IMG/VR virus record: IMGVR_UViG_3300021185_000148
Coordinates: 1 to 43,950 of that record
Direction: 5' to 3' (one strand)
DNA: 43,950 nt
DNA from: a virus
Shown here: positions 4,591-39,855 of the stretch, one piece after another
How positions within the stretch are numbered: the first letter of the stretch is position 1
Layout of the letters: every line of letters begins with the position of its first letter
Translations under genes and position numbers: made by a program
Notes under the pieces: model-generated
What the model saw: only the letters and a program-made list of their open reading frames with translations
Database searches by the model: none
What the model was told of the DNA's origin: nothing

Positions 4591-4592
4591 TC

Positions 4593-5818: not shown

Positions 5819-5821
5819 ATA
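5814..5821 (+). promoter_or_regulatory. T4-type late promoter TATAAATA before gp13
   Basis: A perfect TATAAATA octamer, the T4 late promoter core recognised by gp55-containing RNA polymerase, overlaps the stop codon of the preceding gene and ends 31 nt before the gp13 start. The same spacing is seen at gp22, gp23 and other late genes in this window. Confidence 0.85.
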
Positions 5822-5852
5822 GTGTATAGCAATCTAACTATGGGAAATAGAA

Positions 5853-6596: not shown

Positions 6597-6600
6597 CACT

Positions 6601-8826: not shown

Positions 8827-10420
8827 AAAAGGTTATAACGGCAACGTAAACCTCAAGCGTAAAGGTACACCTATAGAATTTAGTCCTGATATGATTCAGG
8901 AATACTTGAAATGTGCTGGAGACCCCACATACTTTTCTGAGAAATATATTCAAATTGTGCATGTAGATCATGGTCTGATACAGATCAAGTTATACGATTA
9001 TCAACGTGAGATCATCGAAGCTATTACAAACAACAGACGTGTAACTGTGAATACGTCTCGGCAGGCTGGTAAAACAACTACCGCTGTCGCTGTTATTTTG
9101 CATTATGTATTATTCAACGATCATAAGACCGTGGCACTTCTTGCTAACAAGGGTGATGCCGCACGTGAAATCTTAGATCGAATCAAGATAGCATACGAAG
9201 CACTCCCTAAGTGGCTACAGCAAGGTGTCATAGAATGGAACAAAGGTTCTGTTGAGTTTGAGAACGGCTGTAAGATCATTGCGGGTGCTACATCGTCAAG
9301 TGCTATTCGTGGTAAATCTATATCATTCCTCTATATCGATGAGACAGCATTCGTAGAGAACTGGGACGAGTTTTTCGCTTCTGTGTTTCCTACAATCTCA
9401 TCGGGTAAGACAACTAAAATTCTATTCACTTCTACACCGAATGGACTCAATCACTTCTATAAGACATGTGAGGGAGCCAAGGATGGCAGAAACGGATATA
9501 TCTTTATCGAAGTGCCTTGGTATGAAGTACCAGAGCGTGATGAGAAATGGAAAGAAGAAACACTGCAAGCAATGGATCATGACTATCAAAAGTTTGCACA
9601 AGAATTCGAATGCCAATTCTTAGGCTCATCTGGCACACTTATCGAAGGTTCTAAACTGAAGACACTAGTGATAAAAGAACCAGTGGCTGAGAAGCAGAAC
9701 TTGAGAATATTCGACTATCCAGACAAGTCAAAAACATACATAGTAGTAGTAGATGTATCAAGAGGTAAAGGATTAGACTATTCAGCATTTCAAGTGATAG
9801 ATGTATCACAGATGCCGTACAAACAAGTAGCGGCATACAGAGACAACATGATCACTCCGATCGATTACGCAGAGATTCTACACTCTGTTATAAAGATGTA
9901 CAATGAGGCGTACACATTGATCGAAGTAAATGACATTGGTGAACAAGTGTCAGAAATTCTGCACTATGACTATGAAGTAGAAACTCTACTATTTACAGAA
10001 TCGGCAGGTCGTTCGGGTAAAAGAATATCTGCTGGATTTGGAAAAAATGTAGACAAGGGCATACGAACCACTAAATCAGTCAAGGCTGTTGGATGCAACA
10101 TGCTAAAACTGATGACAGAACAAGACCAACTAATTATAAACGATTTTTTTACTATAAATGAACTATCAACATTCTCTAGAAAGGGTAACTCATATGAAGC
10201 AGAAAGTGGTGCCCATGACGATACAGTCATGTGTCTCGTTCTGTTTGCATGGCTGACTGATCAGACCTTCTTTAGAGAGATAACAGATATCAATACAATG
10301 ATGAAACTAAAGCAAAGAAACGAAGAAGATTTGATGGAAAGTCTACTTCCCATTGGCTTCAACTCTAATGATGACTTTGTGGAAGAGGTAGAGACTCCTG
10401 CTGGTTGGTTCAACTACTAA
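8810..10420 (+). CDS. 17: gp17-like terminase large subunit
   Basis: 536 residues. The ATPase domain has a Walker A-type loop SRQAGKTT (Lys88) and Walker B FLYIDE (Asp177, Glu178), followed by the coupling motif TSTPNG. The C-terminal RNase H-like nuclease domain starts at VVVDVSRGKGLDYSAF (Asp315) and ends with SGAHDDTVMCL, carrying metal-binding acids. This is the packaging motor and headful nuclease docked on portal gp20. The start overlaps gp16 by 17 nt; GTG at 8819 is an alternative. Confidence 0.96.
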   Translation: MNLVNEKGYNGNVNLKRKGTPIEFSPDMIQEYLKCAGDPTYFSEKYIQIVHVDHGLIQIKLYDYQREIIEAITNNRRVTVNTSRQAGKTTTAVAVILHYVLFNDHKTVALLANKGDAAREILDRIKIAYEALPKWLQQGVIEWNKGSVEFENGCKIIAGATSSSAIRGKSISFLYIDETAFVENWDEFFASVFPTISSGKTTKILFTSTPNGLNHFYKTCEGAKDGRNGYIFIEVPWYEVPERDEKWKEETLQAMDHDYQKFAQEFECQFLGSSGTLIEGSKLKTLVIKEPVAEKQNLRIFDYPDKSKTYIVVVDVSRGKGLDYSAFQVIDVSQMPYKQVAAYRDNMITPIDYAEILHSVIKMYNEAYTLIEVNDIGEQVSEILHYDYEVETLLFTESAGRSGKRISAGFGKNVDKGIRTTKSVKAVGCNMLKLMTEQDQLIINDFFTINELSTFSRKGNSYEAESGAHDDTVMCLVLFAWLTDQTFFREITDINTMMKLKQRNEEDLMESLLPIGFNSNDDFVEEVETPAGWFNY

Positions 10421-12443: not shown

Positions 12444-12998
12444 ATGGCTTTCAATATCAATGAAATCAAGAGCCAACTGACTTTTGGTGGTGCTAAAGCG
12501 TCTCTTTTCCAAGTGCAGATCACGAACCCTGTAAACGGAATAGCAGACCTAAAAGTACCATTCATGGTTCAAGCGGCAGCAATCCCAGAGGCGACTCTGG
12601 GTATGATCGAAGTCCCGTACTTTGGTCGTAAAGTAAAAATCGCAGGTGACAGAACTTTTGCAGAGTGGACAGTAACAATCATCAATGATGAAGACTTTCT
12701 TGTTCGCAACGCAATGGAAAACTGGATGGCATCGATCAATTCACACCAAGGTAACGTCCGTCAGTTAGAGAATTCTAGCCCTAATCAATATAAAGCGCAG
12801 GGTCAGATCACACAATTCTCTAAAGCTGGTGTACCTCTAAGAGAGTACACTTTCAACGGATTGTTCCCAACTAGTGTTGCAGCCATTACGATGGACTGGA
12901 ATACTACGGATGACATTGAGCGATTTGATGTGACCTTTCAATACGATTTCTGGGAAGTTAGCGGCGGCATTACAGGTGACGCTGGTACAACTGTCTAA
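12444..12998 (+). CDS. 19: gp19-like tail tube protein
   Basis: 184 residues with an AAGGAG site. It has the tube-fold pattern of T4 gp19: an N-terminal helix (FNINEIKSQLTFGGAKASLFQVQI), a VPYFGRKVKIAGDRTFAEWTVTI strand pair, and the C-terminal GLFPTSVAAITMDWNTTDDIERFDVTFQYDFWEV. The length is close to the T4 protein (163) with a small N-terminal and loop expansion. It polymerises into the inner tail tube. A stem-loop follows the gene. Confidence 0.93.
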   Translation: MAFNINEIKSQLTFGGAKASLFQVQITNPVNGIADLKVPFMVQAAAIPEATLGMIEVPYFGRKVKIAGDRTFAEWTVTIINDEDFLVRNAMENWMASINSHQGNVRQLENSSPNQYKAQGQITQFSKAGVPLREYTFNGLFPTSVAAITMDWNTTDDIERFDVTFQYDFWEVSGGITGDAGTTV

Positions 12999-18721: not shown

Positions 18722-19216
18722 ATGAAGTTACAAAATTTTCTAAATCCAGTTGAGTTTCGCTTTCAACTAAAGCGTATGCCCAACACACAGTTCTTTGTTC
18801 AGAACGTTACTATACCAGACATTTCATCTGGCGTAACTGAACAGATGACACCATTCAAGACTGTATATCGTCCAGGCGATAAAGTGCAGTTTGGTGATCT
18901 CACGATGCAAATCGCTATAGATGAAAATCTTGGTGCGTACTTAGATGCGTGGAACTGGCTGATCAGTCTAACAAAACCTGAGGGCTTTGAACAATACGCA
19001 GATTTGATCAGCGATGGTGGCGACGGAGTATACTCTGATGCTACACTTACACTACTAACTAACGGTAAGAACCCTAACGTAGAGTTCACCTTTATCGATA
19101 TGTTCCCGACCAGCGTTGGCGGTTTGCCACTTGATATAACTAATAGTGTGCCTACTGTACCAACAACAGATATTACTTTTAGATACTCATCGTACACCAT
19201 CAAAGTTCTATCTTGA
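18722..19216 (+). CDS. Tail tube-fold virion protein at the gp3 position
   Basis: 164 residues. It has a tail-tube-like pattern: N-terminal MKLQNFLNPVEFRFQLKRMPNTQFFVQNVTIPDIS, a FKTVYRPGDKVQFGDLTMQIAIDENLGAYLDAWNWLI central part, and a closing FIDMFPTSVGGLPLDITNS segment that parallels GLFPTSVAAITMDWNTTD of gp19. In cyanophage T4-likes the gene between gp23 and uvsY is annotated as gp3, the tail completion and sheath stabiliser protein. By synteny this is the best guess, though a second tube-family or tube initiator protein (gp48/gp54 type) is an alternative. Confidence 0.65.
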   Translation: MKLQNFLNPVEFRFQLKRMPNTQFFVQNVTIPDISSGVTEQMTPFKTVYRPGDKVQFGDLTMQIAIDENLGAYLDAWNWLISLTKPEGFEQYADLISDGGDGVYSDATLTLLTNGKNPNVEFTFIDMFPTSVGGLPLDITNSVPTVPTTDITFRYSSYTIKVLS

Positions 19217-23645: not shown

Positions 23646-25351
23646 TCTTATTCAAGGCGGTAAGATATAAAAATATATTATCAACAGGCAATTCGTGGAC
23701 AGAAATTATCTTAGATAAGAGTAAGTCTACTCTAATTGTTGGCGACAACGGTGCTGGTAAGTCTACTATGTTAGACGCTATCGCCTTTGCTCTGTATGGC
23801 AAAGCATTCCGTAATATCAAAAAGCCACAGCTATTGAACTCTATCAATCAGAAAGAACTGATGGTAGAACTGGACTTCAACATCTCAGGCAACAAGTATA
23901 CTATCAAGCGTGGTATCAAGCCAAACATCTTTGAGATATGGAAGAACGATCAACTACTCAACCAAGATGCATCTGTGCGTGACTACCAAGCGTACCTAGA
24001 AGAGACTATTCTAAAGATGAACTACAAGTCTTTTGGTCAAGTAGTTGTACTGGGTTCTAGTACGTTTGTACCATTTATGCAACTATCTGCTAAAGACCGA
24101 CGTGAGGTCATAGAAGACCTGCTTGACATTCAAATCTTTACTGTGATGAACACGCTCCTCAAAGAACGTGTCTCAGAGAACAAAGAAGAGATTCAAGAGA
24201 TAAAGTACCAGATCGATCTACTATCTAATAAGATTGAAAGTGCTACAGAGCATAATGAATCTATTCGACAACTGAAAGAGACAGAGGTAACTAAACTCAA
24301 AGACAAGTTGAAAGAACAAATCGAACTCATTGAAGCCGAGCAATCGGCAGTAGATACTCTTATAGAAGAGATCAAAGAGATGGGTGAGACTATTGCTGAC
24401 AAGGCTACAGTCAAGAAGAAGTTACAAGAACTAGAAAAAGTTGAGGGTCAGTTATCAGATAAGTTGAAGAAGCTACGTAAAGATATTGCTTTCTACCAGC
24501 ACAACGATGACTGTCCCACTTGTAAGCAAGGTATCGACCATCATTTCAAAGAGGAGACCATACAAGGCTCTAGCGATAAGATCAACAAGATCGAAGAAGC
24601 GACAGTTGAACTTGATGGTAGATTCACTAAGGTCAATGAACGACTTACTGAGATTGATGAGGTAGAGTCCGTTATATCTGATAAGAACATGCAGATGAGC
24701 GAACACAATGCCACACACCGTGTTGCTATGGGTGTATGTAAGTCCATCAAGAATGAACTAACAGAAGCAGAGAAGTCTGTAGAAGCAATCGACACATCTG
24801 CTATTGAGAAGTTACAGGGCGATCTGTTGACGTATCACAATAGACAGAACCAGTTGTTCGATGACAAAGAGATGATGGGCATTGTATCGTCTATGCTGAA
24901 AGATGGTGGTATCAAGACTCGTATCATCAAGCAGTACGTTCCAGTCATGAATAAACTAATCAATAAATACCTAGCGGCGATGGACTTCTTCGTTCAGTTT
25001 GAACTGGATGAGGGATTCAACGAAACTATCAAGTCCAGATTCCGTGACGTATTCTCTTACTCCTCTTTCTCTGAGGGTGAGAAACTAAGAATTGATCTAG
25101 CCCTTCTGTTCACGTGGCGGGCTGTATCTAAATTGCGTAACTCAGTGTCTACCAATTTGCTATTGATGGATGAGATCATGGACTCATCACTCGACAACGC
25201 AGGTACAGATGAGTTCCTAAAAATAATAAATGAGTTGACAGCCGACTCAAATATCTTTATAATAAGTCACAAAGGCGATCAACTCTATGAGAAGTTTGAC
25301 AACGTAATCAGATTCGAAAAGGTGAAGAACTTTAGTAGAATGGCTTCATAG
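23642..25351 (+). CDS. 46: gp46-like recombination nuclease subunit (Rad50 type)
   Basis: 569 residues (T4 560). N-terminal ABC ATPase with Walker A VGDNGAGKST (Lys40), a Q-loop region around FGQVVVLGSSTF, two coiled-coil arms (about 170-280 and 310-400) and a zinc-hook CPTC (Cys291, Cys294) between them. The C-terminal lobe has the signature FSEGEKLRIDLALLF, Walker B LLLMDEIMDSSLD and the IISHKGD switch. It forms the ATPase of the end-resection complex with gp47. Confidence 0.97.
   Translation: MILFKAVRYKNILSTGNSWTEIILDKSKSTLIVGDNGAGKSTMLDAIAFALYGKAFRNIKKPQLLNSINQKELMVELDFNISGNKYTIKRGIKPNIFEIWKNDQLLNQDASVRDYQAYLEETILKMNYKSFGQVVVLGSSTFVPFMQLSAKDRREVIEDLLDIQIFTVMNTLLKERVSENKEEIQEIKYQIDLLSNKIESATEHNESIRQLKETEVTKLKDKLKEQIELIEAEQSAVDTLIEEIKEMGETIADKATVKKKLQELEKVEGQLSDKLKKLRKDIAFYQHNDDCPTCKQGIDHHFKEETIQGSSDKINKIEEATVELDGRFTKVNERLTEIDEVESVISDKNMQMSEHNATHRVAMGVCKSIKNELTEAEKSVEAIDTSAIEKLQGDLLTYHNRQNQLFDDKEMMGIVSSMLKDGGIKTRIIKQYVPVMNKLINKYLAAMDFFVQFELDEGFNETIKSRFRDVFSYSSFSEGEKLRIDLALLFTWRAVSKLRNSVSTNLLLMDEIMDSSLDNAGTDEFLKIINELTADSNIFIISHKGDQLYEKFDNVIRFEKVKNFSRMAS
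25235..25263 (+). promoter_or_regulatory. Full-consensus sigma70 promoter inside gp46
   Basis: TTGACA, exactly 17 bp, TATAAT: both hexamers perfect, within the last 120 nt of gp46 and 99 nt before the DUF465-like ORF. It should drive the accessory block that follows. Confidence 0.85.
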
Positions 25352-25361
25352 GAGATGACTA

Positions 25362-25538
25362 ATGTTAGAAGACAGACTATCATCACTGAAACGAAAGCAT
25401 CACGAACTTCACACTCGCATAGAGGTTCTTGAAGCAGAGAAGTGTCAGTCTAAGTATGTGACACCTCTCAAGAAAGAGAAATTGAGAATGAAAGATGAAA
25501 TGGTATCCATCGAAAGGAAGATTGCCGCTAACTCATAA
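25362..25538 (+). CDS. 58-residue DUF465/YdcH-like coiled-coil protein
   Basis: The ORF starts with ATG eight nt after a GGAG site and ends 10 nt before the next gene. The product opens MLEDRLSSLKRKHHELHTRI, followed by LEAEK and LKKEKLRMKDEM. The H-x-x-L-x-x-x-I-x-x-LE core and the LKKEKLxxKDE segment match DUF465 (YdcH), a short helical hairpin family common in proteobacteria and phages with unknown function. It lies directly downstream of a full-consensus promoter. Confidence 0.75.
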   Translation: MLEDRLSSLKRKHHELHTRIEVLEAEKCQSKYVTPLKKEKLRMKDEMVSIERKIAANS

Positions 25539-25548
25539 GGTGAATTAT

Positions 25549-25998
25549 ATGATGAAGAAATCGAAGCGTGTAGGATTTACATGTAGTACGTTTGACCTGT
25601 TACACGCAGGACATGTTATGATGCTACGTGAAGCAAAAGAGCAATGTGATCACTTGATATGTGGTCTTCAAATCGATCCTGCTCTGGATCGACCAGAGAA
25701 GAACTCTCCCATTCAATCCATTGTTGAGCGTTATACACAACTGTCGGCTGTGAAGTACGTTGATGAAGTTATTGTGTATGCCACTGAAAACGACTTGAAA
25801 GATATCCTCGAACTATATCTCATTGATGTTCGTATCTTAGGTCCAGAATATAAAGACAAAGAATTCACTGGTAGAGATGTTTGTGATAAGCGAAACATAG
25901 AACTTTACTTCAACAATAGAGACCATAGATTTTCGTCTAGCAGTCTACGTACAAACGTAGTATGGGGCGAGTCAGATTTTGTGAACAAGAAAAAATGA
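25549..25998 (+). CDS. Cytidylyltransferase-like nucleotidyltransferase
   Basis: 149 residues from the ATG at 25549, which has an AAGGTG site; an upstream in-frame ATG at 25495 lies inside the preceding ORF and is unlikely. The HxGH signature of the nucleotidyltransferase superfamily is His19-Ala-Gly-His22 (FDLLHAGHV). Downstream, RFSSSSLR near residues 127-134 matches the ISSTxxR motif. Its closest overall look is TagD/RfaE-domain cytidylyltransferases that make CDP-glycerol or NDP-heptose. It probably activates a sugar or polyol for the glycosyltransferases encoded next to it, which is inference. Confidence 0.85.
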   Translation: MMKKSKRVGFTCSTFDLLHAGHVMMLREAKEQCDHLICGLQIDPALDRPEKNSPIQSIVERYTQLSAVKYVDEVIVYATENDLKDILELYLIDVRILGPEYKDKEFTGRDVCDKRNIELYFNNRDHRFSSSSLRTNVVWGESDFVNKKK

Positions 25999-27092
25999 AG
26001 ATACTCTTACCATACTCCACACATTTCGAATTAGTAGAGAACGCTGAAACTAACGGTAAAGTGATCACGGGTGGTATTGAGAAGTTCTGCCAAGACTTAG
26101 AGAATAATATTGATGGCATCATACCAGTTGCAGTCACTAAAGAAGATAAAGAGAAGAGACGTACACGTAAAGTAATCACTGACGCTATTGCGGAGCATGA
26201 TCCAGATATGATCTTGTTCAACAATCCTTGGTGGGGAAATATGATGATGTCTTTCAACGTACCACTAATTTGTATTATGCATGAACCACTTGTGCGTGAT
26301 ATACGTATGGTAGAACTCGGCACAATATTGAGAGATTTGAACGAGAGTGGATGCCATATCTACTTTGTGAGTCCTAAACAATATGAGTACCACAAAGAAA
26401 TGGCATTGAGAATACGTAACGTAGACTTCGGTGAGATCAAGGGATATATCAACCCTTCATATCTGCCAAAAGATACTCCGTTTGAGAACACGTGGAACAA
26501 TGAAGATATATGTTACGATGTCTCTACAGTAGGCAGATGTGACAACGAGAAGGCACCATTTCTCGTACATAGTAAGTTAGAGCGATCTAAGCTAAACAGC
26601 CTAGTGATGACTAACGATGGTGTATATAAGAGTAGCACAGTCAACGACTATGTGCTGAACAATCAACACTGGAAAGATCCACGCTTTACTATGCGTGGTT
26701 TGGCTCATGATGACGTAATGAAGAACATTGCTAAGTCTCTTAGTTTCTGTTCAACTTGGCCTAAAGAGTCCTGGGGTATCACAGCAATGGAAGCATTAGG
26801 CTGTGGTGTACCAACTTTGCTAATGTGTGATGATACTATCACTCACTCAAGCGAAGGCATTGCCGCTGATCCAAGACATACCTATATGATCAGACGTAAG
26901 TGTAGCAGTAGCGACTTTGAGTCTGCTATATTGAAGCACACTAAGGCTATGTCACCATTTCGTAGAGAGATAGCGGAGATGACAAAAGAGAAGCATAGTC
27001 TATCAAATTGGAAAATAAGACTTGACAAGGTGATCGATATACGTTATAATGACCACAATAAATCTTTTTCAGATTTAACGAGGTTTTTATGA
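25995..27092 (+). CDS. GT-B family (GT4-like) glycosyltransferase
   Basis: 365 residues starting at the ATGA overlap at 25995 (an upstream in-frame ATG at 25962 is less likely). The N-terminus MKILLPYSTHFELV is a Rossmann strand. The C-terminal half has the GT4 donor-site signature WPKESWGITAMEALGCGVP with the E-x7-E pair Glu258 and Glu266, and RGLAHDDVMKNIAKSLSF before it. It transfers an activated sugar; the acceptor (DNA base, LPS, protein) cannot be told from the sequence. A full-consensus promoter for the next gene is embedded in its 3' end. Confidence 0.85.
   Translation: MKILLPYSTHFELVENAETNGKVITGGIEKFCQDLENNIDGIIPVAVTKEDKEKRRTRKVITDAIAEHDPDMILFNNPWWGNMMMSFNVPLICIMHEPLVRDIRMVELGTILRDLNESGCHIYFVSPKQYEYHKEMALRIRNVDFGEIKGYINPSYLPKDTPFENTWNNEDICYDVSTVGRCDNEKAPFLVHSKLERSKLNSLVMTNDGVYKSSTVNDYVLNNQHWKDPRFTMRGLAHDDVMKNIAKSLSFCSTWPKESWGITAMEALGCGVPTLLMCDDTITHSSEGIAADPRHTYMIRRKCSSSDFESAILKHTKAMSPFRREIAEMTKEKHSLSNWKIRLDKVIDIRYNDHNKSFSDLTRFL
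27022..27050 (+). promoter_or_regulatory. Full-consensus sigma70 promoter inside the GT4-like gene
   Basis: TTGACA, exactly 17 bp, TATAAT, both perfect, ending 38 nt before the start of the following large glycosyltransferase gene although it lies in coding sequence. Confidence 0.85.
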
Positions 27093-28615
27093 GTGTAAAA
27101 GAAAGTGCAAATTACGATAACTTCTTAGACGCAGACAAGCGTGATAAGGATGAGTACGGTATTAGTTTAGATAGGTTTATGGATGAGCCTGTACAGCCAG
27201 TTCTGTATGATCAGACTAAAGCTAAGAGCCAGTACGATGACGTGTATAAAGTATTATACGTACACTTCCGTAGTTTGGATGATGTTGCCGATTTCTGTTC
27301 TAAGATAGGTCAGATCATACACTCAAACGATAAAGCAGTATTCTTTCCTCTGAACGATCCTGCTGAGTCATTATTCCCAGAAGAGCAAGCAACTAATATT
27401 GAAGTTGACAAACAACTGGTAAAGCCTAAGAGGGCAAACAGAAAAGCGAAAGTCGATACTACTCTTGATGTCGAACTTGCAGAAGATGGCGATAAGAACG
27501 CTAAGTGGTCAGAACATTGGCAAGGTATGCCAGAGTTCATACAAGAAGACTGTCCACCATATCGCACAGTTCACGTCATGTTCAGAACAGAAGAGCATTA
27601 CAAAGACTTCGCAAAAAGAATTGGTCAGAAGCATCTTAGTGAAAAATCTAAGTCTATCTGGCATCCCAAATTGGAGATAACTGCTAATAGACTACTACGT
27701 TGGGTAGATGAGTCGCAGACACTCCCACAGTTTCCCATGTACATCGTGTCAAAGGGTCGTCACGAATCCATGCATACGTCAAGGTCACTTGCCCGCATGA
27801 AGATTCCGCATTACATCGTGATAGAACCACAAGACTTTGATGACTATGATAAGGCGTTAGACAACTTCAGCATACGTGATTACGTGACGCTCCTAGTTGC
27901 CCCTTTTTCAAATCATGGTGATGGTCCAGGTAGGGCAAGAAACTGGGCATGGGACCACTCTATAAGTTTAGGGGCTACAAGTCACTGGGTGTTTGATGAT
28001 AACATCTCTGACTTCTATCGCCTAAACGAGAACAAACGCATTCGCTTTGAGAGCGGAGCTGGCTTTAGAGCCATGGAAGATTTTGTAGGAAGATATGACA
28101 ATGTTTACATCGCTGGTCCACAGTATAGATTCTTTATTGCGCCAGATCAGAAGTATCCTCCTTACGTTGCCAACACCCGTATATATTCTAGTCTTCTTAT
28201 CAGGAATGATTGTAAGCATAGATGGCGTGGTAGATATAACGAAGATACTGACATCTGCCTACGAGTAATGAAAGACGGTGATGTATGTGTACAGTTCAAT
28301 GCTTTCTTACAGGGCAAAGCGGCTACTCAAACAGTTGCAGGTGGTAATACTGCTGAGTTTTATCACGCAGAGAATGTAGAAAGTGAGGGGTTCAAAGAGA
28401 CTGGATACAACACAGAGGGTACTGTGAATAAGTCACAGATGCTAGTTGACATGCACCCAGACGTAGCAAGACTTGTCTGGAGATATGGTAGATGGCACCA
28501 CTTTGTAGATTACACTCCTTTCAAAAAGAACTTGCTAAAGTTGAAGAAAGATGTTATAATATCATCTGATAACAATGAATATGGTATGAGGCTTGAAACG
28601 AACTTTCAAGAGTGA
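27089..28615 (+). CDS. TET-associated/GREB1-type glycosyltransferase with duplicated N-terminal module
   Basis: 508 residues. Residues about 217-440 form a GT-A-like domain: MYIVSKGR (217), a TSRSLARMKIPHYIVIEPQD region, GDGPGRARNWAWDHS, the DDN metal motif (303-305) and EDTD (385-388) with GG. This layout matches the TET-associated glycosyltransferase (TAGT, GREB1-like) family, known from phages and implicated in DNA base hypermodification. The N-terminal part holds two related modules, about 52-94 and 158-205, both with H-x-F-R and IGQ. It overlaps its neighbours at both ends. The DNA-modification role is inference from family knowledge. Confidence 0.75.
   Translation: MSVKESANYDNFLDADKRDKDEYGISLDRFMDEPVQPVLYDQTKAKSQYDDVYKVLYVHFRSLDDVADFCSKIGQIIHSNDKAVFFPLNDPAESLFPEEQATNIEVDKQLVKPKRANRKAKVDTTLDVELAEDGDKNAKWSEHWQGMPEFIQEDCPPYRTVHVMFRTEEHYKDFAKRIGQKHLSEKSKSIWHPKLEITANRLLRWVDESQTLPQFPMYIVSKGRHESMHTSRSLARMKIPHYIVIEPQDFDDYDKALDNFSIRDYVTLLVAPFSNHGDGPGRARNWAWDHSISLGATSHWVFDDNISDFYRLNENKRIRFESGAGFRAMEDFVGRYDNVYIAGPQYRFFIAPDQKYPPYVANTRIYSSLLIRNDCKHRWRGRYNEDTDICLRVMKDGDVCVQFNAFLQGKAATQTVAGGNTAEFYHAENVESEGFKETGYNTEGTVNKSQMLVDMHPDVARLVWRYGRWHHFVDYTPFKKNLLKLKKDVIISSDNNEYGMRLETNFQE
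28532..28560 (+). promoter_or_regulatory. Candidate sigma70-type promoter before dexA
   Basis: TTGCTA, 17 bp, perfect TATAAT, at the end of the glycosyltransferase gene and 57 nt before dexA. The -35 hexamer matches only four of six positions. Confidence 0.5.
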
Positions 28616-28617
28616 GA

Positions 28618-29256
28618 ATGAAAAAAGATTTTATATTTGATTTAGAGACAGTTGGTGCCAACGTTCACATCTGTCCAATAGTTGATATGGCGTACTACGC
28701 ATTTGAGTGGGATAGGTTTCTAGAGAACCCGTACTCATTTGAGGAGTTAGCGTCCAACATTCAAACGGTCAAGCTAGATGTAAGAGATCAAGTCGAGAAC
28801 TGGAAATGTGGCTTCGAACAAGAAGACCTCAAGTTCTGGCAGAGATTGCCTAAAGCCGCAAGAGATAAACTCAAGCCAACAGAAAATGACTTGACAGTAC
28901 AGCCCTTTTGTGATATTATACTAGCATATCTAAGAGAACAGAGAAATGTGGATTACTGGTGGTCAAGAAGTAACACCTTTGATCCCATTATCATATGGAG
29001 AATTATGAACGAGAGTGGTAACGGACACTTGTTTAGCGAGTATCTAAAGTACTACAAAGTTCGTGATATACGTACCTTCATCGATGCCAAATTCAACTTC
29101 GGCATCAAGCACAATGGGTTCATCCCAGTAGCAGATGAAGATTACTGGCATAAAACTTTCGTTGCACATGATAGCACCCATGATGTAGCGGCAGATATTC
29201 TTAGACTACAAATGATCCATCGTGCTGAAAATGGACATGACCAAACTGAGAGGTAG
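28618..29256 (+). CDS. dexA: DexA-like 3'-5' exonuclease
   Basis: 212 residues from ATG 28618 (a GTG at 28612 is in frame). DnaQ/RNase-T fold: Exo I D-x-E is Asp8-Leu9-Glu10 (FDLETVG), Exo II lies near WWSRSNTFDP, and Exo III is FVAHDSTHDVAADIL. The RDIRT and VAHDS-x-HD segments align with T4 DexA, exonuclease A. In T4 DexA degrades DNA from 3' ends and is non-essential. A promoter with extended -10 is embedded in the gene. Confidence 0.88.
   Translation: MKKDFIFDLETVGANVHICPIVDMAYYAFEWDRFLENPYSFEELASNIQTVKLDVRDQVENWKCGFEQEDLKFWQRLPKAARDKLKPTENDLTVQPFCDIILAYLREQRNVDYWWSRSNTFDPIIIWRIMNESGNGHLFSEYLKYYKVRDIRTFIDAKFNFGIKHNGFIPVADEDYWHKTFVAHDSTHDVAADILRLQMIHRAENGHDQTER
28891..28919 (+). promoter_or_regulatory. 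Extended -10 sigma70 promoter inside dexA
   Basis: TTGACA, 17 bp, TATTAT preceded by TG. It has the same TTGACAG start and the same 14-base -10 region as the gp55 promoter and lies 340 nt upstream of the next gene. Confidence 0.65.
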
Positions 29257-29259
29257 ATA

Positions 29260-29787
29260 ATGAAAATTGGAGCAAGTGGCTTACAAGCACAATTGCATAA
29301 TGTGAAAGAAAGTAAATGCGGTCCTAAGATAGACCTAGAGAGTATTGGTAAGTTTGCGGCATCAGAGAGTGGTGCAGAGCGAGAAGCACTTGGTGTGCCT
29401 TACATGAAACAATTACCTCTAGAGGGGCTAGCCGCCGGTGCGGCAGCCTTAGAATATGGAGCGCAGAAGTACGCTGATCGTAACTGGGAGAAAGGTCTTC
29501 CATGGCAACAGATGATTGATAGTCTAAAGAGACACATCGATGATTTTGAGCGTGGTCGTGATTATGACAATGGCTCAGATGGATCTGGTATGCATCACGT
29601 CTGTATGATTATGGCTGGTGCGTTGATGTTATCTTCATCTGTTATTAGAGGCATCGGCACAGATGATCGTATGCCTAGCGTAGATGGTGGCGCATTTACA
29701 TCTAAACAATCTGCAAAGTGGATTCAAGAGCAATTGAATCTCGCTGAAGAATTCAAAAGAAAGCGTGAGGAATATAATGAATCTTGA
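29260..29787 (+). CDS. dATP/dGTP diphosphohydrolase-like protein (DUF5664 family)
   Basis: 175 residues. Residues about 60-127 carry the family core YGAQKYADRNWEKGLPW, a RH-I-D-D-F-E-R-G segment, and a D-G-S-G-M-H-H-V-x-M-I-M-A-G-A-L-M-L helix, which match the N-terminal domain of phage dATP/dGTP pyrophosphohydrolases (MazG-like helical bundle, metal-binding acids Glu/Asp plus His). It would convert dNTPs to dNMPs and so reshape the nucleotide pool. Whether the catalytic set is complete cannot be decided by eye. Its neighbours are an exonuclease and a glycosyltransferase. Confidence 0.7.
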   Translation: MKIGASGLQAQLHNVKESKCGPKIDLESIGKFAASESGAEREALGVPYMKQLPLEGLAAGAAALEYGAQKYADRNWEKGLPWQQMIDSLKRHIDDFERGRDYDNGSDGSGMHHVCMIMAGALMLSSSVIRGIGTDDRMPSVDGGAFTSKQSAKWIQEQLNLAEEFKRKREEYNES

Positions 29788-30694
29788 TCTTGAAGTACTA
29801 AGAGGCAAGCGGCTATTTGTTGCAACGCCTATGTACGGTGGACAATGTGCAGGCTTATACACTAAGTCAGTAAACGATCTAACGTCTATATGCACAAAGC
29901 ATGGGATTAGTCTTAGACATTACTACATGTTCAATGAGTCTCTAATTACTAGGGCTAGAAATTATTGCGTAGATGAGTTTCTACGTTCTGATGCTACCCA
30001 CTTACTCTTTATTGATAGTGACATTGGGTTCGACTATCGTGATGCCTTGACACTACTGTTTCTTACAGATAGTGACGCAGGTAAAGACGTTGTGTGTGGA
30101 CCGTATCCTAAAAAGACAATAGCTTGGGAGAAGATCAAGAAAGCATCTGATCTTGGATACGGTGACAAGAACCCATTCGATCTAGAAGATTTTGGTGGAG
30201 ATTACGTCTTCAATACTATAGACGGCATGAAGTCGTTTCAGATAAAAGAGGTAACCGAAATCAAAGAGGGCGGCACAGGTTTCATGTGCGTAGATAAGAA
30301 AGCGTTTATCAAGTATGCTGATAAGTATCCTGAGTTACGCTACAAGCCTGATCATGTACGAACTGAGAACTTTGATGGTTCGCATGAGATCACAGCATTC
30401 TTTGATACGATGATTGAACCAGTGTCAAAAAGGTATTTGTCAGAAGACTACATGTTTAGTAACTATGCTCGTAAGATTGGTCTAAGCATATGGATGTGTC
30501 CATGGATGCAGATCAAACATGTGGGGTCTTATACTTTTGGAGGTAGCTTAGGTCATATCGCTATGATCGATGCATCACCTACAGCGAGTAAAGAGTCAAG
30601 TAAAAAACATTATGATAATAATGAAAAAGACTTGACAAAGACGGCAAAATCGAGTATAAATAAACCTACTAACCGTAGAAAGAAGAGGAAATAG
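29777..30694 (+). CDS. GT-A family glycosyltransferase
   Basis: 305 residues, taking ATG 29777 with GTGAGGA upstream; a GTG at 29765 is possible. The pattern LFVATPMYGG, SLITRARNYCVDEFL and HLLFIDSDIGF (D-x-D at Asp80 and Asp82) is that of GT-A glycosyltransferases widespread in marine T4-like phages. A conserved C-terminal part has GGTGFMCVDKKAF, SEDYMFSNYARK and IKHVGSYTFGG. The last 40 residues are Lys/Ser/Thr-rich and disordered. It could act on DNA, on virion proteins or on cell-surface glycans. The gp45 promoter is embedded in its 3' end. Confidence 0.85.
   Translation: MNLDLEVLRGKRLFVATPMYGGQCAGLYTKSVNDLTSICTKHGISLRHYYMFNESLITRARNYCVDEFLRSDATHLLFIDSDIGFDYRDALTLLFLTDSDAGKDVVCGPYPKKTIAWEKIKKASDLGYGDKNPFDLEDFGGDYVFNTIDGMKSFQIKEVTEIKEGGTGFMCVDKKAFIKYADKYPELRYKPDHVRTENFDGSHEITAFFDTMIEPVSKRYLSEDYMFSNYARKIGLSIWMCPWMQIKHVGSYTFGGSLGHIAMIDASPTASKESSKKHYDNNEKDLTKTAKSSINKPTNRRKKRK
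30632..30662 (+). promoter_or_regulatory. Fused sigma70 and late promoter before gp45
   Basis: TTGACA (30632-30637), 17 bp, TATAAA (30655-30660), and the same -10 is the first part of a perfect late box TATAAATA (30655-30662). It ends 35 nt before the gp45 start. The one site could be read by host sigma70 early and by gp55 late. Confidence 0.8.
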
Positions 30695-30697
30695 ATT

Positions 30698-31348
30698 ATG
30701 AAATTTAGTGACGAAACAATGAGCGTTTTGAAAAACTTCTCTCAGATCAACCCAAGTCTGTTGTTCAGACCTGGTGATATGATTAGAACAATCTCTCCAC
30801 AGAAGACAGTTATGGCTGCCGCAACTGTGAGTGAGAATTTTGATAGTCAAGCTGGTGTATACGACTTAGGTCGATTCCTTGCCACGCTTGGTTTATTTGA
30901 AGATGCAGATGTTGCATTTGGCGATGGTCGATTCAACATCAAAGGTAAGCGCAGTTCTTTGAACTATACTTACACTGCTGAAAATATGATTGTCGTTCCA
31001 CCGAACAAAGACATTACTGTTCCAGATCCTGAAGCAGTTGTCAAAGTGACTTGGGATGATATCGATAGTGTCATTCGTGCCGCTGGTGTACTAGGACTAC
31101 CTGAGATCGCTTTCAAAGGCGAAGGTAGCACTCTTTCATTGGCTGCCGTTGACAGCAAAAATCCAACATCTGACAATTATGACGTTGTTGTTGGTGAGAA
31201 CGGAGACTTTGGTCATTTCACTATGACAATCAAAGTTGACAATCTCAAGCTAATGCCATACGACTATGAAGTCGCCTTGTCTTCTAAAGGTATGGCACAT
31301 TTCAAATCTGACAAGGTACAATACTGGATTGCAATCAACAGTAAATAG
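30698..31348 (+). CDS. 45: gp45-like sliding clamp
   Basis: 216 residues (T4 228). Clear family features: MKFSDETMSVLKNFSQINPSLLFRPGD, YDLGRFLATLGLFED, and the C-terminal VDNLKLMPYDYEVALSSKGMAHFKSDKVQYWIAINSK. It forms a trimeric PCNA-type ring that tethers gp43 to DNA and also activates gp55-dependent late transcription. The leader just before ATG (GAGGAAATAGATTATG) resembles the RegA target in T4 clamp-loader mRNA. Confidence 0.96.
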   Translation: MKFSDETMSVLKNFSQINPSLLFRPGDMIRTISPQKTVMAAATVSENFDSQAGVYDLGRFLATLGLFEDADVAFGDGRFNIKGKRSSLNYTYTAENMIVVPPNKDITVPDPEAVVKVTWDDIDSVIRAAGVLGLPEIAFKGEGSTLSLAAVDSKNPTSDNYDVVVGENGDFGHFTMTIKVDNLKLMPYDYEVALSSKGMAHFKSDKVQYWIAINSK

Positions 31349-31358
31349 GAGTAATATT

Positions 31359-31643
31359 ATGACTGAAGCAACAGACACTCAGGCAACTGAGCAAGCACCA
31401 GACCAGGGTCCTGGTCTTTCACTAAACGACATCGCCGCCACTGTGCAGATTATCGATGCCGTTACTGCGAGAGGTGCTATCAGAGGCGAGGAGCTGGTTC
31501 CTGTCGGGACAGTTCGTGAGCGTTTCATGGCGTTCTTGAATCATGCCAAAGAGCAAGGTCAGATCGACCGTGTTCCTGGCGACCCGATGCCAGAATCACC
31601 AGCGCCTGCACCTGAGCAAGCAACGGAAGAAGCATCTAGCTAA
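31359..31643 (+). CDS. Conserved small protein between gp45 and gp44
   Basis: 94 residues from ATG 31359, which has a TAGGAG site at the end of gp45; an upstream in-frame start at 31266 lies inside gp45. Termini are Thr/Glu/Pro/Ala-rich and probably disordered. The core SLNDIAATVQIIDAVTARGA and EELVPVGTVRERFMAFLNHAKEQG is a short helical domain found at this locus in marine T4-likes. Function unknown. It is followed by a terminator. Confidence 0.7.
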   Translation: MTEATDTQATEQAPDQGPGLSLNDIAATVQIIDAVTARGAIRGEELVPVGTVRERFMAFLNHAKEQGQIDRVPGDPMPESPAPAPEQATEEASS

Positions 31644-31654
31644 TTCCACGAAAA

Positions 31655-31679
31655 GGGGGCTTGACATAGCCCCCTTTTT
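31655..31679 (+). terminator. Intrinsic terminator after the gp45 operon
   Basis: GGGGGC (31655-31660) pairs with GCCCCC (31669-31674) over an 8-nt loop and is followed by five T residues. The loop carries the -35 box of the gp44 promoter. Confidence 0.9.
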
Positions 31680-31689
31680 ACTCTATACT
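31661..31689 (+). promoter_or_regulatory. Sigma70 promoter of gp44, interlocked with a terminator
   Basis: TTGACA (31661-31666) in the terminator loop, exactly 17 bp, TATACT (31684-31689). The 3' arm of the terminator and its T-run form the promoter spacer. The promoter lies 31 nt before the gp44 start. Confidence 0.85.
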
Positions 31690-31720
31690 ATGTTGATATA
31701 TTTTTATTATGAGGTGACCT

Positions 31721-32662
31721 ATGACAGAAGACTTTCTATGGGTAGAGAAGTATCGCCCGCACACTGTGCAAGATGCTGTACTACCTGAGTCTCTAAAGAC
31801 TACATTCCAACAGTTTGTCGATCAAGACAACGTTCCTAATTTATTACTAACTGGTCGTGCTGGTGTCGGTAAGACAACTATCGCTAAAGCAATGCTTGAT
31901 GAAATCAATGCAGACTATATAGTTATCAACGGCTCTATGAATGGTAACATCGATACGCTACGTGTTGAAATTGCCAACTTCGCTTCTACTGTATCATTCA
32001 GTGGTGGTCGTAAGTATGTTATATTAGATGAAGCAGACTACTTGAACCCCAACTCTACGCAACCTGCATTGCGGAACTTTATGGAAGAGTTCAGTAAGAA
32101 CTGCGGTTTCATTCTAACTTGTAACTTCAAGAACCGTATCATTGAACCCTTGCACTCACGGTGTAGTGTTGTTGAGTTCAGTATCCCTAAAGATGAAAAG
32201 CAAGCAATTGCTGGTCAATTTTTCAAACGTGTAAAAGGCATTCTCAATGACGAAAATATCGAATACGATAGTAATGCTGTTGCTGAGTTGGTCAAGACTT
32301 ATTTCCCTGATTGGCGTAGAGTCCTCAACGAACTACAGCGTTACTCTTCTACTGGTCGCATCGACTCTGGTATCTTAGCCAATAAGTCTAGTGACAACAT
32401 TAGTACACTCATCACTATGATGAAAGAGCGTGACTTCACTAACATGCGTAAGTGGGTTGCAGAGAACACTGATATAGACAGTGCGGTCTTGTATCGCCAG
32501 TTGTATGATATACTGCCAAGTAAAGTAAATAGTACACAAAGCGTGGCAGATGCTATCATCATTCTGGCTGAATATCAGTACAAAGAAGCATTCGTTGCTA
32601 ACTCTGAGATCAACCGTGTAGCCGCACTCGCTACTCTCATGGCAGAGATCGATTGGAAATGA
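31721..32662 (+). CDS. 44: gp44-like clamp loader large subunit
   Basis: 313 residues (T4 319). AAA+ ATPase with Walker A GRAGVGKTT (Lys51), Walker B LDEAD (Asp103-Asp106), sensor 1 FILTCNFKN and the SRC motif LHSRCSVVEF that supplies the arginine finger. With gp62 it opens and loads the gp45 clamp. Start has a GAGGTG site. Confidence 0.97.
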   Translation: MTEDFLWVEKYRPHTVQDAVLPESLKTTFQQFVDQDNVPNLLLTGRAGVGKTTIAKAMLDEINADYIVINGSMNGNIDTLRVEIANFASTVSFSGGRKYVILDEADYLNPNSTQPALRNFMEEFSKNCGFILTCNFKNRIIEPLHSRCSVVEFSIPKDEKQAIAGQFFKRVKGILNDENIEYDSNAVAELVKTYFPDWRRVLNELQRYSSTGRIDSGILANKSSDNISTLITMMKERDFTNMRKWVAENTDIDSAVLYRQLYDILPSKVNSTQSVADAIIILAEYQYKEAFVANSEINRVAALATLMAEIDWK

Positions 32663-37341: not shown

Positions 37342-39855
37342 ATGAGTTTTTACACTTCCGTACATAGATATGGCAACAAGATGCTATTCCGTGGCTACAC
37401 AGCCGACGGTCAACGCATTCACAAGAAAGTGCCATTCAAGCCAACACTATTCGTCCCATCTAACAAATCGTCTGAGTGGAAAGCACTAGACGGTAGTGCG
37501 GTTGAACCTATGCAGTTCGATAGTATGTCTGAAGCGCAAGAATTCTCTAAGAGTTACGCAGACGTAGACAACTTCAAAGTTCACGGCAACAACAACTTCG
37601 TGGCACAGTTCATTGAGAAGGCGTTCCCTGGTGAGATCGATTATAAGTTGCGACATATCTGTGTTGGTAATATCGATATCGAGGTTGCATCAGACGATGG
37701 CTTTCCTCACCCAGAGCAAGCTGATCATCCTATCATCTCTATCGCATACAAAGACAGCAAAAGCAAAGTCTATCATGTATGGGGTCTAGGTCATTATGAC
37801 TCTACCAAGAGCGAACTAGATAGTATTGAGTTGATACAGTATCGTCACTGTGACAATGAGAAAGACCTGATCGAAAAGTTTCTGGTCTTCTGGCAGAATA
37901 ACACGCCTGACATCATCACTGGTTGGAACATTCGCTTGTTCGATATCCCGTACATGATCAATCGTACACTCAAAGTATGTGGCGAAGAGACTACCAAACT
38001 CTATTCACCATGGAAGATATACAAGCACCGTCAGATCGGCATCAAGGGTAAGTCGATGGATGCATATGAACTTTACGGCATTGCCCAAGTTGACTACTAC
38101 GATCTGTTTCAGAAGTTTGGCTACACGTATGGTAATCAAGAGAGTTATGCACTCAACCATATTGCTCATACAGTTCTCGGTGAGAAGAAGATATCTTATG
38201 AAGAGTTCGGTACTCTACACAATCTATACAAAGAGAATCACCAGAAGTTCATCGACTATAACATACGAGACGTTGATCTAGTTGACCGCATTGACAAAGA
38301 GACTGGTCTTATGGACTTGGCTCTCGTAATCGCATACAAAGGTGGTGTGAATTACCCAGATGTGTTCGGTACTACGGGCATATGGGATTCTATCATCTAT
38401 CGCTACTTGTCTGAACGTAAGATTGCTGTACCACCAAACAAAGATAAGCACAAGAATCCATATCCTGGTGGCTATGTGAAAGACCCACGTGTTGGCATGA
38501 GTGAATGGATTACCTCGTTTGACTTGAACAGTCTGTACCCTAACCTAATTGTACAGTACAACATGTCGCCCGAGACGTTGATACGCACCCCGGCTGATAT
38601 GTATCCCATGGGTGTTGATACTTATCTCGCAAATGATACTCCTGTATCCGATGCACAGTTGAATCACGGTGTCGCTATCGCCGCAAATGGATCTACATAT
38701 CGTAAAGACAAACGTGGTTTCATGCCTGAGATCATTATTGATCTGTACAATGAACGCCGTGAGACTAAGAACAAGATGCTTGAGTTACAGCAAGAATCTC
38801 AGTCTGATGGCTCCCACGACTTGAAGCGAGAGATAAATAGACTAAACAACACACAGCAAGCGGTCAAGATTTTGCTCAACTCGCTTTATGGCGCACTCGG
38901 CAATCAATACTTCCGTTACTTCGAAATGTCCATTGCTGAAGGCATTACATTATCTGGTCAACTATCTGTTCGATGGGCTGAGAAAGCCATGAACAAATAC
39001 ATGAACAAACTACTCAAGACCGATGAAGAAGATTATGTAATTGCTATCGATACTGACTCTCTTTATGTTGACATGGCACCACTGGTCAAGATGGTAAACC
39101 CTTCTGATCCAGTGAAGTTTATTGACAAAGCCTGCCAAGAAAAGTTTGAGCCAGTTCTAGAGCGTTCTTATGCTGTGTTGTTTGACCGAATGAATGCATA
39201 CGAAAATCGTATGGAGATGGCACGTGAAGCTATTGCTGATCGTGGTGTTTGGACTGCTAAGAAGCGGTACATTCTGAACGTACATAATAATGAAGGTGTG
39301 CAGTACGCAGTGCCTAAACTAAAGATCATGGGCATTGAGGCAGTCAAGTCATCGACACCTCAAGTAGTGCGTGATAAGTTCAAGCAAGCGTACCAGATTA
39401 TTTTGAGTGGTAGTGAGAGTGAGTTACAGAAGTTCGTGTCTGACTTCTATGAAGAGTTTACTAGCCTACCTGCCGAAAGCGTCTCGTTTCCACGTGGCGT
39501 ATCCGATCTAACAAAGTGGAAAGATACGACCACTATGTACAAGAAAGGCACACCTATACATGTGCGTGGTGCGATTATGTTCAACCACAAAATGAAAGAG
39601 ACTGGACTTGATAGAGTAATGGAGGGTATCAAAGATGGTAGCAAAGTAAAGTTCTGCTATCTCAAAACTCCTAATCCACTGAGAGAGAACGTCATCTCGT
39701 TTCCTCAGTTCTTGCCTAAAGAGTTCGATCTAGACACATACATAGATTATCAAACTCAGTTCGATAAGACATTCAAAGAGCCACTAAAGCTGGTCAGTGA
39801 TGCTATCAACTGGAACTTAGAAGAGACTAACACATTGGAGGATTTTTTCTCATGA
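37342..39855 (+). CDS. 43: gp43-like family B DNA polymerase
   Basis: 837 residues (T4 898). The proofreading exonuclease has Exo I NIDIEV (Asp112, Glu114), Exo II TGWNIRLFDIPY and Exo III YNIRDVDLVDRI. The polymerase has motif A FDLNSLYPN (Asp394), motif B KILLNSLYG (from Lys509) and motif C DTDS (Asp570, Asp572). The extreme C-terminus ending LEDFFS should be the gp45-binding peptide. It overlaps the next gene by ATGA. The leader has the inverted repeat described separately. Confidence 0.97.
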   Translation: MSFYTSVHRYGNKMLFRGYTADGQRIHKKVPFKPTLFVPSNKSSEWKALDGSAVEPMQFDSMSEAQEFSKSYADVDNFKVHGNNNFVAQFIEKAFPGEIDYKLRHICVGNIDIEVASDDGFPHPEQADHPIISIAYKDSKSKVYHVWGLGHYDSTKSELDSIELIQYRHCDNEKDLIEKFLVFWQNNTPDIITGWNIRLFDIPYMINRTLKVCGEETTKLYSPWKIYKHRQIGIKGKSMDAYELYGIAQVDYYDLFQKFGYTYGNQESYALNHIAHTVLGEKKISYEEFGTLHNLYKENHQKFIDYNIRDVDLVDRIDKETGLMDLALVIAYKGGVNYPDVFGTTGIWDSIIYRYLSERKIAVPPNKDKHKNPYPGGYVKDPRVGMSEWITSFDLNSLYPNLIVQYNMSPETLIRTPADMYPMGVDTYLANDTPVSDAQLNHGVAIAANGSTYRKDKRGFMPEIIIDLYNERRETKNKMLELQQESQSDGSHDLKREINRLNNTQQAVKILLNSLYGALGNQYFRYFEMSIAEGITLSGQLSVRWAEKAMNKYMNKLLKTDEEDYVIAIDTDSLYVDMAPLVKMVNPSDPVKFIDKACQEKFEPVLERSYAVLFDRMNAYENRMEMAREAIADRGVWTAKKRYILNVHNNEGVQYAVPKLKIMGIEAVKSSTPQVVRDKFKQAYQIILSGSESELQKFVSDFYEEFTSLPAESVSFPRGVSDLTKWKDTTTMYKKGTPIHVRGAIMFNHKMKETGLDRVMEGIKDGSKVKFCYLKTPNPLRENVISFPQFLPKEFDLDTYIDYQTQFDKTFKEPLKLVSDAINWNLEETNTLEDFFS

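Follow-up and report, generated by a model that had tools for sequence, protein, structure and literature searches.

Introduction

The closest described relatives of the system considered here belong to the T-even bacteriophages, where the glycosyltransferase of the TAGT (TET-associated glycosyltransferase) family found in T2 and T6 attaches a second glucose to one already linked to the base (PMC13216743). The same report describes TAGTs without T4-type partners as common in phages, their function being open, and counts solitary TAGTs in 288 of 753 phage genomes. In T4 itself, alpha-glucosyltransferase (alpha-GT), and not beta-glucosyltransferase (beta-GT), was pulled down with the sliding clamp gp45 (PMC13216743), which also binds the exchangeable C-termini of T4 gp43, gp55 and gp33 (PMC2988020). 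Arabinosyl and pentosyl cytosines have been described as well (PMC13390438, PMC6024577, PMC12838424). The present work concerns a block of six genes lying between gp46 and gp45 in the IMG/VR virus record IMGVR_UViG_3300021185_000148, a 43,950-base sequence, classed as linear and probably a fragment, that is called the window throughout. The virus is marine and, by gene content, T4-like.

Quite probably, the block serves a T4-like phage as a cassette for sugar hypermodification of its DNA, an assignment that stops short of naming the base and the sugar. As read from its genes, the cassette would consist of a GT4-type glycosyltransferase with a clamp-type tail, a module-bearing TAGT and a cytidine diphosphate (CDP)-type nucleotidyltransferase, and would represent a variant of the T-even kind; it suggests a virus that would coat its own DNA with sugars while copying it. 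A sequence-only reading of the window had already proposed sugar-adding enzymes for phage DNA, and we infer the same, with added support from clamp-type tails on the GT4-type enzyme and on the TAGT-type enzyme found in its place elsewhere.

The glycosyltransferase block

The features that carry the argument are the following:

25495..25998, + strand: CDP-type nucleotidyltransferase with a HAGH signature (CTP_transf_like, E 3.9e-13), candidate maker of the activated donor
25962..27092, + strand: GT4-type GT-B glycosyltransferase, likely start 25995, EX7E at residues 269-277
27066..27089, + strand: codons of the C-terminal peptide FSDLTRFL, a clamp (gp45)-binding-type tail of the GT-B enzyme by motif comparison
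27089..28615, + strand: TAGT (PF20691) glycosyltransferase, with DDN at residues 303-305 invariant in 21/21 aligned sequences
27236..27364, + strand: TAGT N-terminal module copy 1, residues 50-92, modelled as beta-alpha-beta and matching copy 2 by hhalign
27551..27706, + strand: TAGT N-terminal module copy 2, residues 155-206, modelled as beta-alpha-beta and matching copy 1 by hhalign
30698..31348, + strand: gp45 sliding clamp (Pfam/PHROGs), presumed docking partner of the GT-B tail
37342..39855, + strand: gp43 DNA polymerase, whose C-terminus NTLEDFFS is a reference for the clamp tail

All six genes of the block are open on the + strand at the coordinates that the sequence-only reading had given them, and its family assignments held up as well. 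The GT-B enzyme matches Pfam weakly (Glycos_transf_1, E 0.0017, below cut-off), and its fold is clear by model: the predicted structure has a predicted local distance difference test (pLDDT) score of 81.6 and a GT-B fold, and it matches 6kih_A with Z 27.7 and a root-mean-square deviation of 3.1 over 330 aligned residues, the phage HY126 glycosyltransferase also being among its matches (Z 24.0). E269 and E277 of the EX7E motif, which we take to be the GT4 signature, are invariant in 11/11 aligned sequences, and as modelled the product is clearly a GT4-type GT-B enzyme. Its start is probably the ATG at 25995, which overlaps the preceding stop and is the start of most relatives. No match to PF11440 or PF09198, the Pfam families of T4 alpha-GT and beta-GT, was found at E up to 1, and a profile comparison with alpha-GT gave no meaningful match, beta-GT having been compared by Pfam only; tblastn of the protein against named phages likewise matched nothing.

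The nucleotidyltransferase was confirmed as CDP-type. Compared by profile with solved structures, it lies nearest to ethanolamine-phosphate cytidylyltransferase (E 3.1e-26) and glycerol-3-phosphate cytidylyltransferase (E 1.1e-15), with the lipopolysaccharide (LPS)-core type structure weaker (E 7.7e-9), so that its product need not be a common nucleoside diphosphate sugar. H37 and H40 are invariant in 14/14 aligned nucleotidyltransferases.

The product of 27089-28615, for which a profile search against TAGT had been suggested, scores 137.5 bits against PF20691 (curated cut-off 27.5; E 7.5e-40) and matches phrog_842 at E 1.5e-42; its D303 D304 N305 is presumably the equivalent of the GT-A DxD motif. 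The two N-terminal modules are true repeats at the sequence level, the copies matching each other by profile with 98.3% probability (E 1.2e-14). An accessory or nucleic-acid-binding role for the module is a guess, and a search of named phages with the module-2 peptide found no match. In phiAS5 (L146:9194-9394) and Pectobacterium phage POP12 (L147:9089-9268), the module stands as a separate small frame directly after the TAGT gene. The TAGT model, with a mean pLDDT of 62.2 and no PDB match reaching E 0.001, was set aside for questions of function, and the TAGT profile gave one match to solved structures, at chance level.

The window runs gp13-gp23, uvsY, uvsW, gp55, gp47, gp46, the block, gp45, gp44, gp62 and regA, followed by dUTPase, hsp20, ligase, gp43, uvsX and gp41. 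Among named phages, C48C1 has the polymerase closest to that of the window (52.9% identity); there, gp45 directly follows gp46, and relative to C48C1 the block is therefore an insertion between two replication genes. The G+C content of the block (0.409) is that of the window (0.408), and megablast of positions 24000-32000 against named phages found no match. The reading frames of the nucleotidyltransferase, GT-B, TAGT and DexA genes overlap in turn.

Clamp-type C-terminal tails

At the very C-terminus of the GT-B enzyme, after a loose linker, lies a peptide resembling those of gp43 and gp55. The gp43 proteins of these phages end in NTLEDFFS, DTIEDFFT, SLESFFG and similar, and some gp55 proteins in KKLEYFMA (T4 gp55: SLDFLYEAND); the GT-B relatives end in SDLTEFFT, NSLVDFFV, SNLEGFM, NDLMGFFNE, KDLTSFFI or ASLEDFFS, and the window enzyme in SDLTRFL. 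L372 and F375 are invariant in 11/11 aligned GT-B sequences, down to 41% identity, while neighbouring residues vary. In the model, residues 369-376 form a short helix with pLDDT under 50.

Tails were scanned with the motif [LI]xxF[FMLI], placed within three residues of the end, in 1,961 proteins of at least 100 residues with a stop (252 families), drawn from the loci fetched by then. The motif was picked after the gp43, gp55 and GT-B tails had been seen, and the GT-B count is to that extent not blind; the second-TAGT and C5-methylase-like families emerged from the scan, the former already known as TAGT and the latter identified afterwards. Among the 72 families with at least three distinct tails, the motif was present in more than half of the tails in four and never in 64. 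The four majority families were a second TAGT (10/10), GT-B (14/15), a C5-methylase-like family of about 400 residues (4/5) and gp43 (13/23). When only representatives below 70% identity are considered, the motif occurs in 8/9 GT-B enzymes (one of these representatives being a fragment that carries only the C-terminus), 6/6 second TAGTs, 10/16 gp43, 2/13 gp55 and 14/623 of all others. About eight of these 14 are of modification type, namely three C5-methylase-like proteins, two of a beta-GT-like family, one N-methylase-like, one with a methyltransferase domain and one second-TAGT fragment; the rest are unknown proteins or, once, weakly GIY-YIG-like (L033), and the tail is therefore not exclusive to modification types.

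The tailed family of about 400 residues resembles C5-cytosine DNA methylases (PF00145, E 1.7e-18 to 1.9e-15 in loci L096, L108 and L120). Its member in L106 (E 3e-18) ends in NIMDFAQ, one of the endings that the strict motif misses, along with extended gp55 tails, TVDSFFC of a kinase-like protein and TIFDMFA of the L120 GT-B relative. Other tailed proteins include a 425-residue N6/N4-methylase-like protein in L130 (E 9.2e-6, just below cut-off), a 288-residue protein with a methyltransferase domain in L036 and, in L120, a 341-residue protein with a weak match to T4 beta-GT (E 0.02) and a 363-residue protein that ends in TTVDSFFC, a tail noticed by eye, and carries a 5-hydroxymethyldeoxyuridine (5-hmdU)-DNA-kinase helical domain (PF18723, E 9.6e-9). 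A DNA-methyltransferase-related protein of phiAS5 (phrog_21201, E 1.5e-36), encoded three genes after TAGT, ends in NTLEAFF. By these similarities, the recognisable owners of such tails beyond gp43 and gp55 appear to be mostly, and not exclusively, of DNA-modification type. A search of titles and abstract beginnings in an incomplete literature collection found no paper on clamp-tailed phage glycosyltransferases beyond the T4 alpha-GT work.

Three further observations concern such tails. In L120 (positions 297-9147), a cluster comprises a thymidylate synthase (TS) homologue of the D177 type explained below, a GT-B relative, a 5-hmdU-kinase-domain protein, beta-GT-like and C5-methylase-like proteins and two sugar/inositol genes; four of its genes end in clamp-type tails, and an inositol-related DNA modification is conceivable. 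In C48C1 (L179:17492-21238), a clamp-tailed DNA methyltransferase ending in STLDAFFG lies with a primase, a nucleotide-sugar epimerase and a uridine diphosphate (UDP)-glucose dehydrogenase between gp43 and uvsX, the interval that holds the sugar module of RB69 (PMC6024577). Finally, a 235-237-residue protein encoded on the minus strand (L106:18169 and L120:17558) ends in RSFFI, or in SDFFS in L012 and L027, and is possibly another clamp client.

The TAGT and its partner slot

Of 500 TAGT relatives, 80 were retained. The neighbourhood counts include overlapping loci of one contig and near-identical contigs, the reduction to representatives below 70% identity applying to the tail counts alone. 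In the marine contigs listed, the TAGT gene lies near gp46, gp45, gp43 or gp32. Where more than 1.3 kb was available on both sides (78 loci), a tailed GT-B gene lay within 1.3 kb in 32 and a tailed second TAGT gene in 17. The clamp-tailed slot is thus filled elsewhere by a second TAGT-type enzyme, which marks the TAGT as the constant part and the clamp-tailed partner as the part exchanged; judged by gene neighbourhood, this variation fits a modular system with a constant TAGT. Other TAGT neighbours include a kinase with a weak nucleotidyltransferase match (the L006 family), an epimerase (the L100 group), an FkbM methyltransferase (L025) and an unknown family of 353-387 residues, and in a group on the gp43 side (L066 and others) an SNase-like gene precedes the TAGT gene. 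Vibrio phage Kuja (Ackermannviridae; L149:6611-9299) has two tandem TAGT genes.

In the proposed cassette, the nucleotidyltransferase would contribute to the supply of an activated donor (CDP- or related); the GT-B enzyme would dock on gp45 through its tail and, once docked, would place the initial sugar on a modified base of freshly replicated DNA. The TAGT would then extend or complete the modification, much as the T6 enzyme attaches a second sugar to one already on the base, and the likely purpose would be protection from host nucleases. With a clamp tail, hypermodification would proceed in step with the replication fork. The block is a concrete candidate set for base modification in marine phages, and a short tail that can be recognised in sequence data would make it easier to single out DNA-modifying enzymes, unrecognised ones among them, in metagenomic T4-like phages.

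A broader reading is tentative, and we would give it somewhat less than an even chance: that T4-like phages have a DNA-hypermodification line docked on the replisome, whose mutually unrelated enzymes (GT4-type and TAGT-type glycosyltransferases and C5- or N-methylase-like, 5-hmdU-kinase-like and beta-GT-like proteins) share an exchangeable gp45-binding tail, the branch seen in the window building a new sugar, possibly derived from a CDP donor, on a base made without a deoxycytidine monophosphate (dCMP) hydroxymethylase.

The search for a base substrate

An Asn177-to-Asp change in TS homologues marks dCMP substrates (PMC8670742), and homologues are referred to here as N177- or D177-type; positions 177 and 147, like the DHFR-like and dCMP-deaminase-like frames mentioned below, were called by eye. 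No D177-type dCMP hydroxymethylase was found among the annotated genes of the window or on the TAGT contigs searched; these contigs are all fragments, and the genome of the window phage is incomplete. The TS family PF00303 matched six of 39 contigs, three of them D177-type without TAGT and three TAGT-bearing with canonical-looking N177-type enzymes (G013, G020 and G033, with a DHFR-like frame beside the TS gene of G013). Conversely, none of 39 contigs encoding relatives of the D177-type enzyme (39 of 80 loci; eight of the 39 measure 100-218 kb) had a TAGT above cut-off, one (G059) matching below it. PF00145 matched three of 23 records, which are the three D177 contigs. TET/JBP enzymes were matched on none of 39 contigs in a search whose control likewise matched nowhere.

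Among seven named TAGT phages, PF00303 was found in six, the exception being Vibrio phage 1.076.O. The TS homologues of phiAS5, henriette and POP12 look N177-type, and the complete phiAS5 genome pairs its TAGT with this one TS homologue only. The TAGT-bearing Tenacibaculum phage PTm1 (L161) has an N-type homologue and a second one reading D. In the homologues of Kuja and Aeromonas phage 65, position 177 is N and position 147 is M instead of H, and by the latter residue both are possibly deoxyuridine monophosphate hydroxymethylases; 5-hydroxymethyluracil was not adopted as the acceptor, no M147-type homologue having been seen in the clade of the window. Phage 65 and Aeh1 both carry TAGT, and neither is listed among the carriers of gene 42 in the part of Petrov et al. 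(PMC2993671) that was available. In these sequences, a TAGT of this kind often goes without a dCMP-type enzyme, PTm1 being an exception.

Distant relatives of the GT-B enzyme occur in another setting. In L106 (194,645 bases) and L120 (100,569 bases), one run upstream of DexA, GT-A and gp45 contains a short TS homologue reading D at the Asn177 position, a GT-B relative, a C5-methylase-like protein and others, to which L120 adds UDP-glucose-dehydrogenase-like and inositol-1-phosphate-synthase-like genes. The GT-B relatives are 32-33% identical to the window enzyme, that of L106 over nearly the full length (E 1e-62). In L143 and L144, a dCMP-deaminase-like frame stands beside a D177-type TS homologue. 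The neighbourhoods in L106 and L120 thus appear to link the GT-B family to pyrimidine DNA modification.

Neighbouring genes

The remaining features in and around the block are the following:

28612..29256, + strand: DexA-like exonuclease (Rv2179c-like, E 2.2e-6; phrog_255, E 7.4e-23), not cassette-specific
29260..29787, + strand: dATP/dGTP pyrophosphohydrolase-like protein (dGTP_diPhyd_N, E 5.3e-22), not cassette-specific
29765..30694, + strand: GT-A-like protein (phrog_1574) with a basic C-terminus, directly upstream of gp45, role uncertain
25235..25263, + strand: sigma70-like promoter match (12/12), inside the gp46 frame and upstream of the nucleotidyltransferase gene, consensus match only
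27022..27050, + strand: sigma70-like promoter match (12/12), inside the GT-B frame and upstream of the TAGT gene, consensus match only

The sequence-only reading had drawn the exonuclease and the pyrophosphohydrolase into the system; since each is found in TAGT-free clusters as well, neither was kept as part of it. It had also counted the GT-A protein as a third glycosyltransferase step. The protein is GT-A-like, with the DxD residues D84 and D86 invariant in 28/28 aligned sequences; it has no Pfam match over cut-off and belongs to phrog_1574, a family of unknown function (E 2.5e-57). The step itself was not supported, as the family lies near gp45 in phages without a TAGT match too. In all 66 copies with a downstream gene, duplicates included, it is found directly or at most three genes upstream of gp45 (two further copies sit at contig ends), and it lies near gp45 also in phiM12, RHph_I1_18, OC, DLP6 and Cr30. 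Many marine members end in basic residues, and those of phiM12, DLP6, Cr30, OC and RHph lack the basic tail of the window protein. Neither comparison with the TAGT profile (no meaningful match) nor a profile search of solved structures (no match) placed it further. Action on DNA is possible for this protein, with no support from the tail comparison.

The two promoters that had been proposed to feed the block do match the consensus fully and have 17-base spacers, but they lie inside reading frames, and such sites are no commoner than in shuffled sequence (26 against 23.2 +/- 4.7 expected). Elsewhere in the window, the genes at 12444-12998 and 18722-19216 both match one tail-tube family (phrog_45), and 2134-4590 encodes an 818-residue protein with a laminin-G/concanavalin-like domain that is likely an adhesin or fibre part.

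Alternative explanations

A number of observations weigh against a DNA-modifying cassette. The window tail, LTRFL, is a weaker form than the LTEFFT of relatives; clamp-type tails are absent from the TAGT itself (0/37 distinct tails), from the GT-A protein and from the C-terminus of T4 alpha-GT, and the share of alpha-glucosylation in T4 is set mostly by gene expression rather than clamp contact (PMC13216743). No tailed neighbour lies within 1.3 kb in 29 of the 78 TAGT loci, so that one is not required wherever TAGT occurs, and the TAGT gene adjoins the portal gene, away from replication genes, in Vibrio phage 1.076.O and lies among tRNA genes in Aeromonas phage 65. Neither the window, as the sequence-only reading had noted, nor the searched TAGT contigs, all of them fragmentary, yielded a base-hydroxylating enzyme. 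In the view of Petrov et al. (PMC2993671), major dCMP modification is probably absent from T4 relatives that have no gene-42 network.

That the glycosyltransferases and the nucleotidyltransferase alter host LPS or capsule against superinfection had been kept as an alternative by the sequence-only reading, and it is retained here as an improbable one. GT4 folds often occur in enzymes whose targets are not DNA, the nucleotidyltransferase is similar to HldE/TagD types, and rfaE-like genes and glycosyltransferases of pelagimyophages have been read as LPS-related (PMC7029224). Against this, the clamp tails on the GT-B enzyme and the second TAGT, membership in the TAGT family and placement among replication genes in marine contigs favour DNA over the cell surface. 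In addition, the three glycosyltransferases of the block have no membrane segments (maximum 19-residue hydropathy 0.79-1.26) and are not membrane-spanning transferases like those of Gtr-type surface-glycan cassettes. The usual threshold for a membrane segment is about 1.6. Less probable still is a tailed GT-B enzyme acting on a replisome protein or on free nucleotides: a clamp tail gives a location and not a substrate, but most recognisable tailed proteins besides gp43 and gp55 are of DNA-modifying type, and the T6 TAGT acts on DNA (PMC13216743).

The two remaining explanations keep DNA as the target. A plain T-even system, in which a dCMP hydroxymethylase encoded elsewhere would provide 5-hydroxymethylcytosine for a first sugar from the GT-B enzyme and a second from the TAGT, is unlikely, though by a smaller measure than the cell-surface alternative. 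The T6-type TAGT does this (PMC13216743, PMC13390438), the distant GT-B relatives of L106 and L120 cluster with D177-type TS homologues, PTm1 has its second homologue reading D, and the window and near-identical contigs are fragments; on the other side stand the three TAGT-bearing contigs with N177-type enzymes, the lack of TAGT above cut-off on the D177-type contigs, large ones included, and complete phiAS5. A stronger contender, falling only a little short of an even chance, is that the GT-B enzyme and the TAGT modify DNA while the nucleotidyltransferase and the GT-A protein are mere neighbours belonging to a different pathway. The GT-A gene lies upstream of gp45 in the 66 copies counted above and near gp45 in phages without a TAGT match, and the nucleotidyltransferase was assigned in 32 of 95 TAGT loci, many of which are short. 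For the nucleotidyltransferase, the frames overlapping from its gene through GT-B to TAGT speak otherwise, as do the L006 kinase and the L100 epimerase next to TAGT.

Comparison with known systems

The sugar-hypermodification cassette proposed here shares with T-even glucosylation (T4 alpha-GT, T6 TAGT) a TAGT-family enzyme and a GT-B enzyme, and its genes lie among gp43-gp47, T4 alpha-gt lying between gp47 and gp55. In T4, the GT-B enzyme contacts gp45 (PMC13216743); in the window, a clamp-type tail is read from the sequence. Unlike its T4 counterpart, the window GT-B enzyme is GT4-like, with no profile match to alpha-GT, and carries a clamp-type C-terminal peptide that alpha-GT lacks. The cassette further differs in its own nucleotidyltransferase and its duplicated TAGT N-terminal module, and a dCMP hydroxymethylase was not found on the fragments searched. 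With the solitary-TAGT phages (PMC13216743), it has in common a TAGT without T4-type alpha- or beta-GT, whereas 49 of the 78 loci here have a clamp-tailed partner of GT4 type or second-TAGT type.

Phages with arabinosyl or pentosyl cytosine (RB69, NP and Thanatos) likewise combine glycosyltransferase and sugar-activating genes, and their base carries one or more sugars; their genomes encode a dCMP-type TS homologue together with UDP-sugar enzymes (PMC13390438, PMC6024577, PMC12838424), whereas a CDP-type nucleotidyltransferase is present here and a dCMP-type TS homologue was not seen on the fragments. Finally, the GT-B tail is like those of the T4 clamp clients gp43, gp55 and gp33 in being a short hydrophobic C-terminal peptide for gp45, and unlike them in being carried by enzymes of DNA-modification type.

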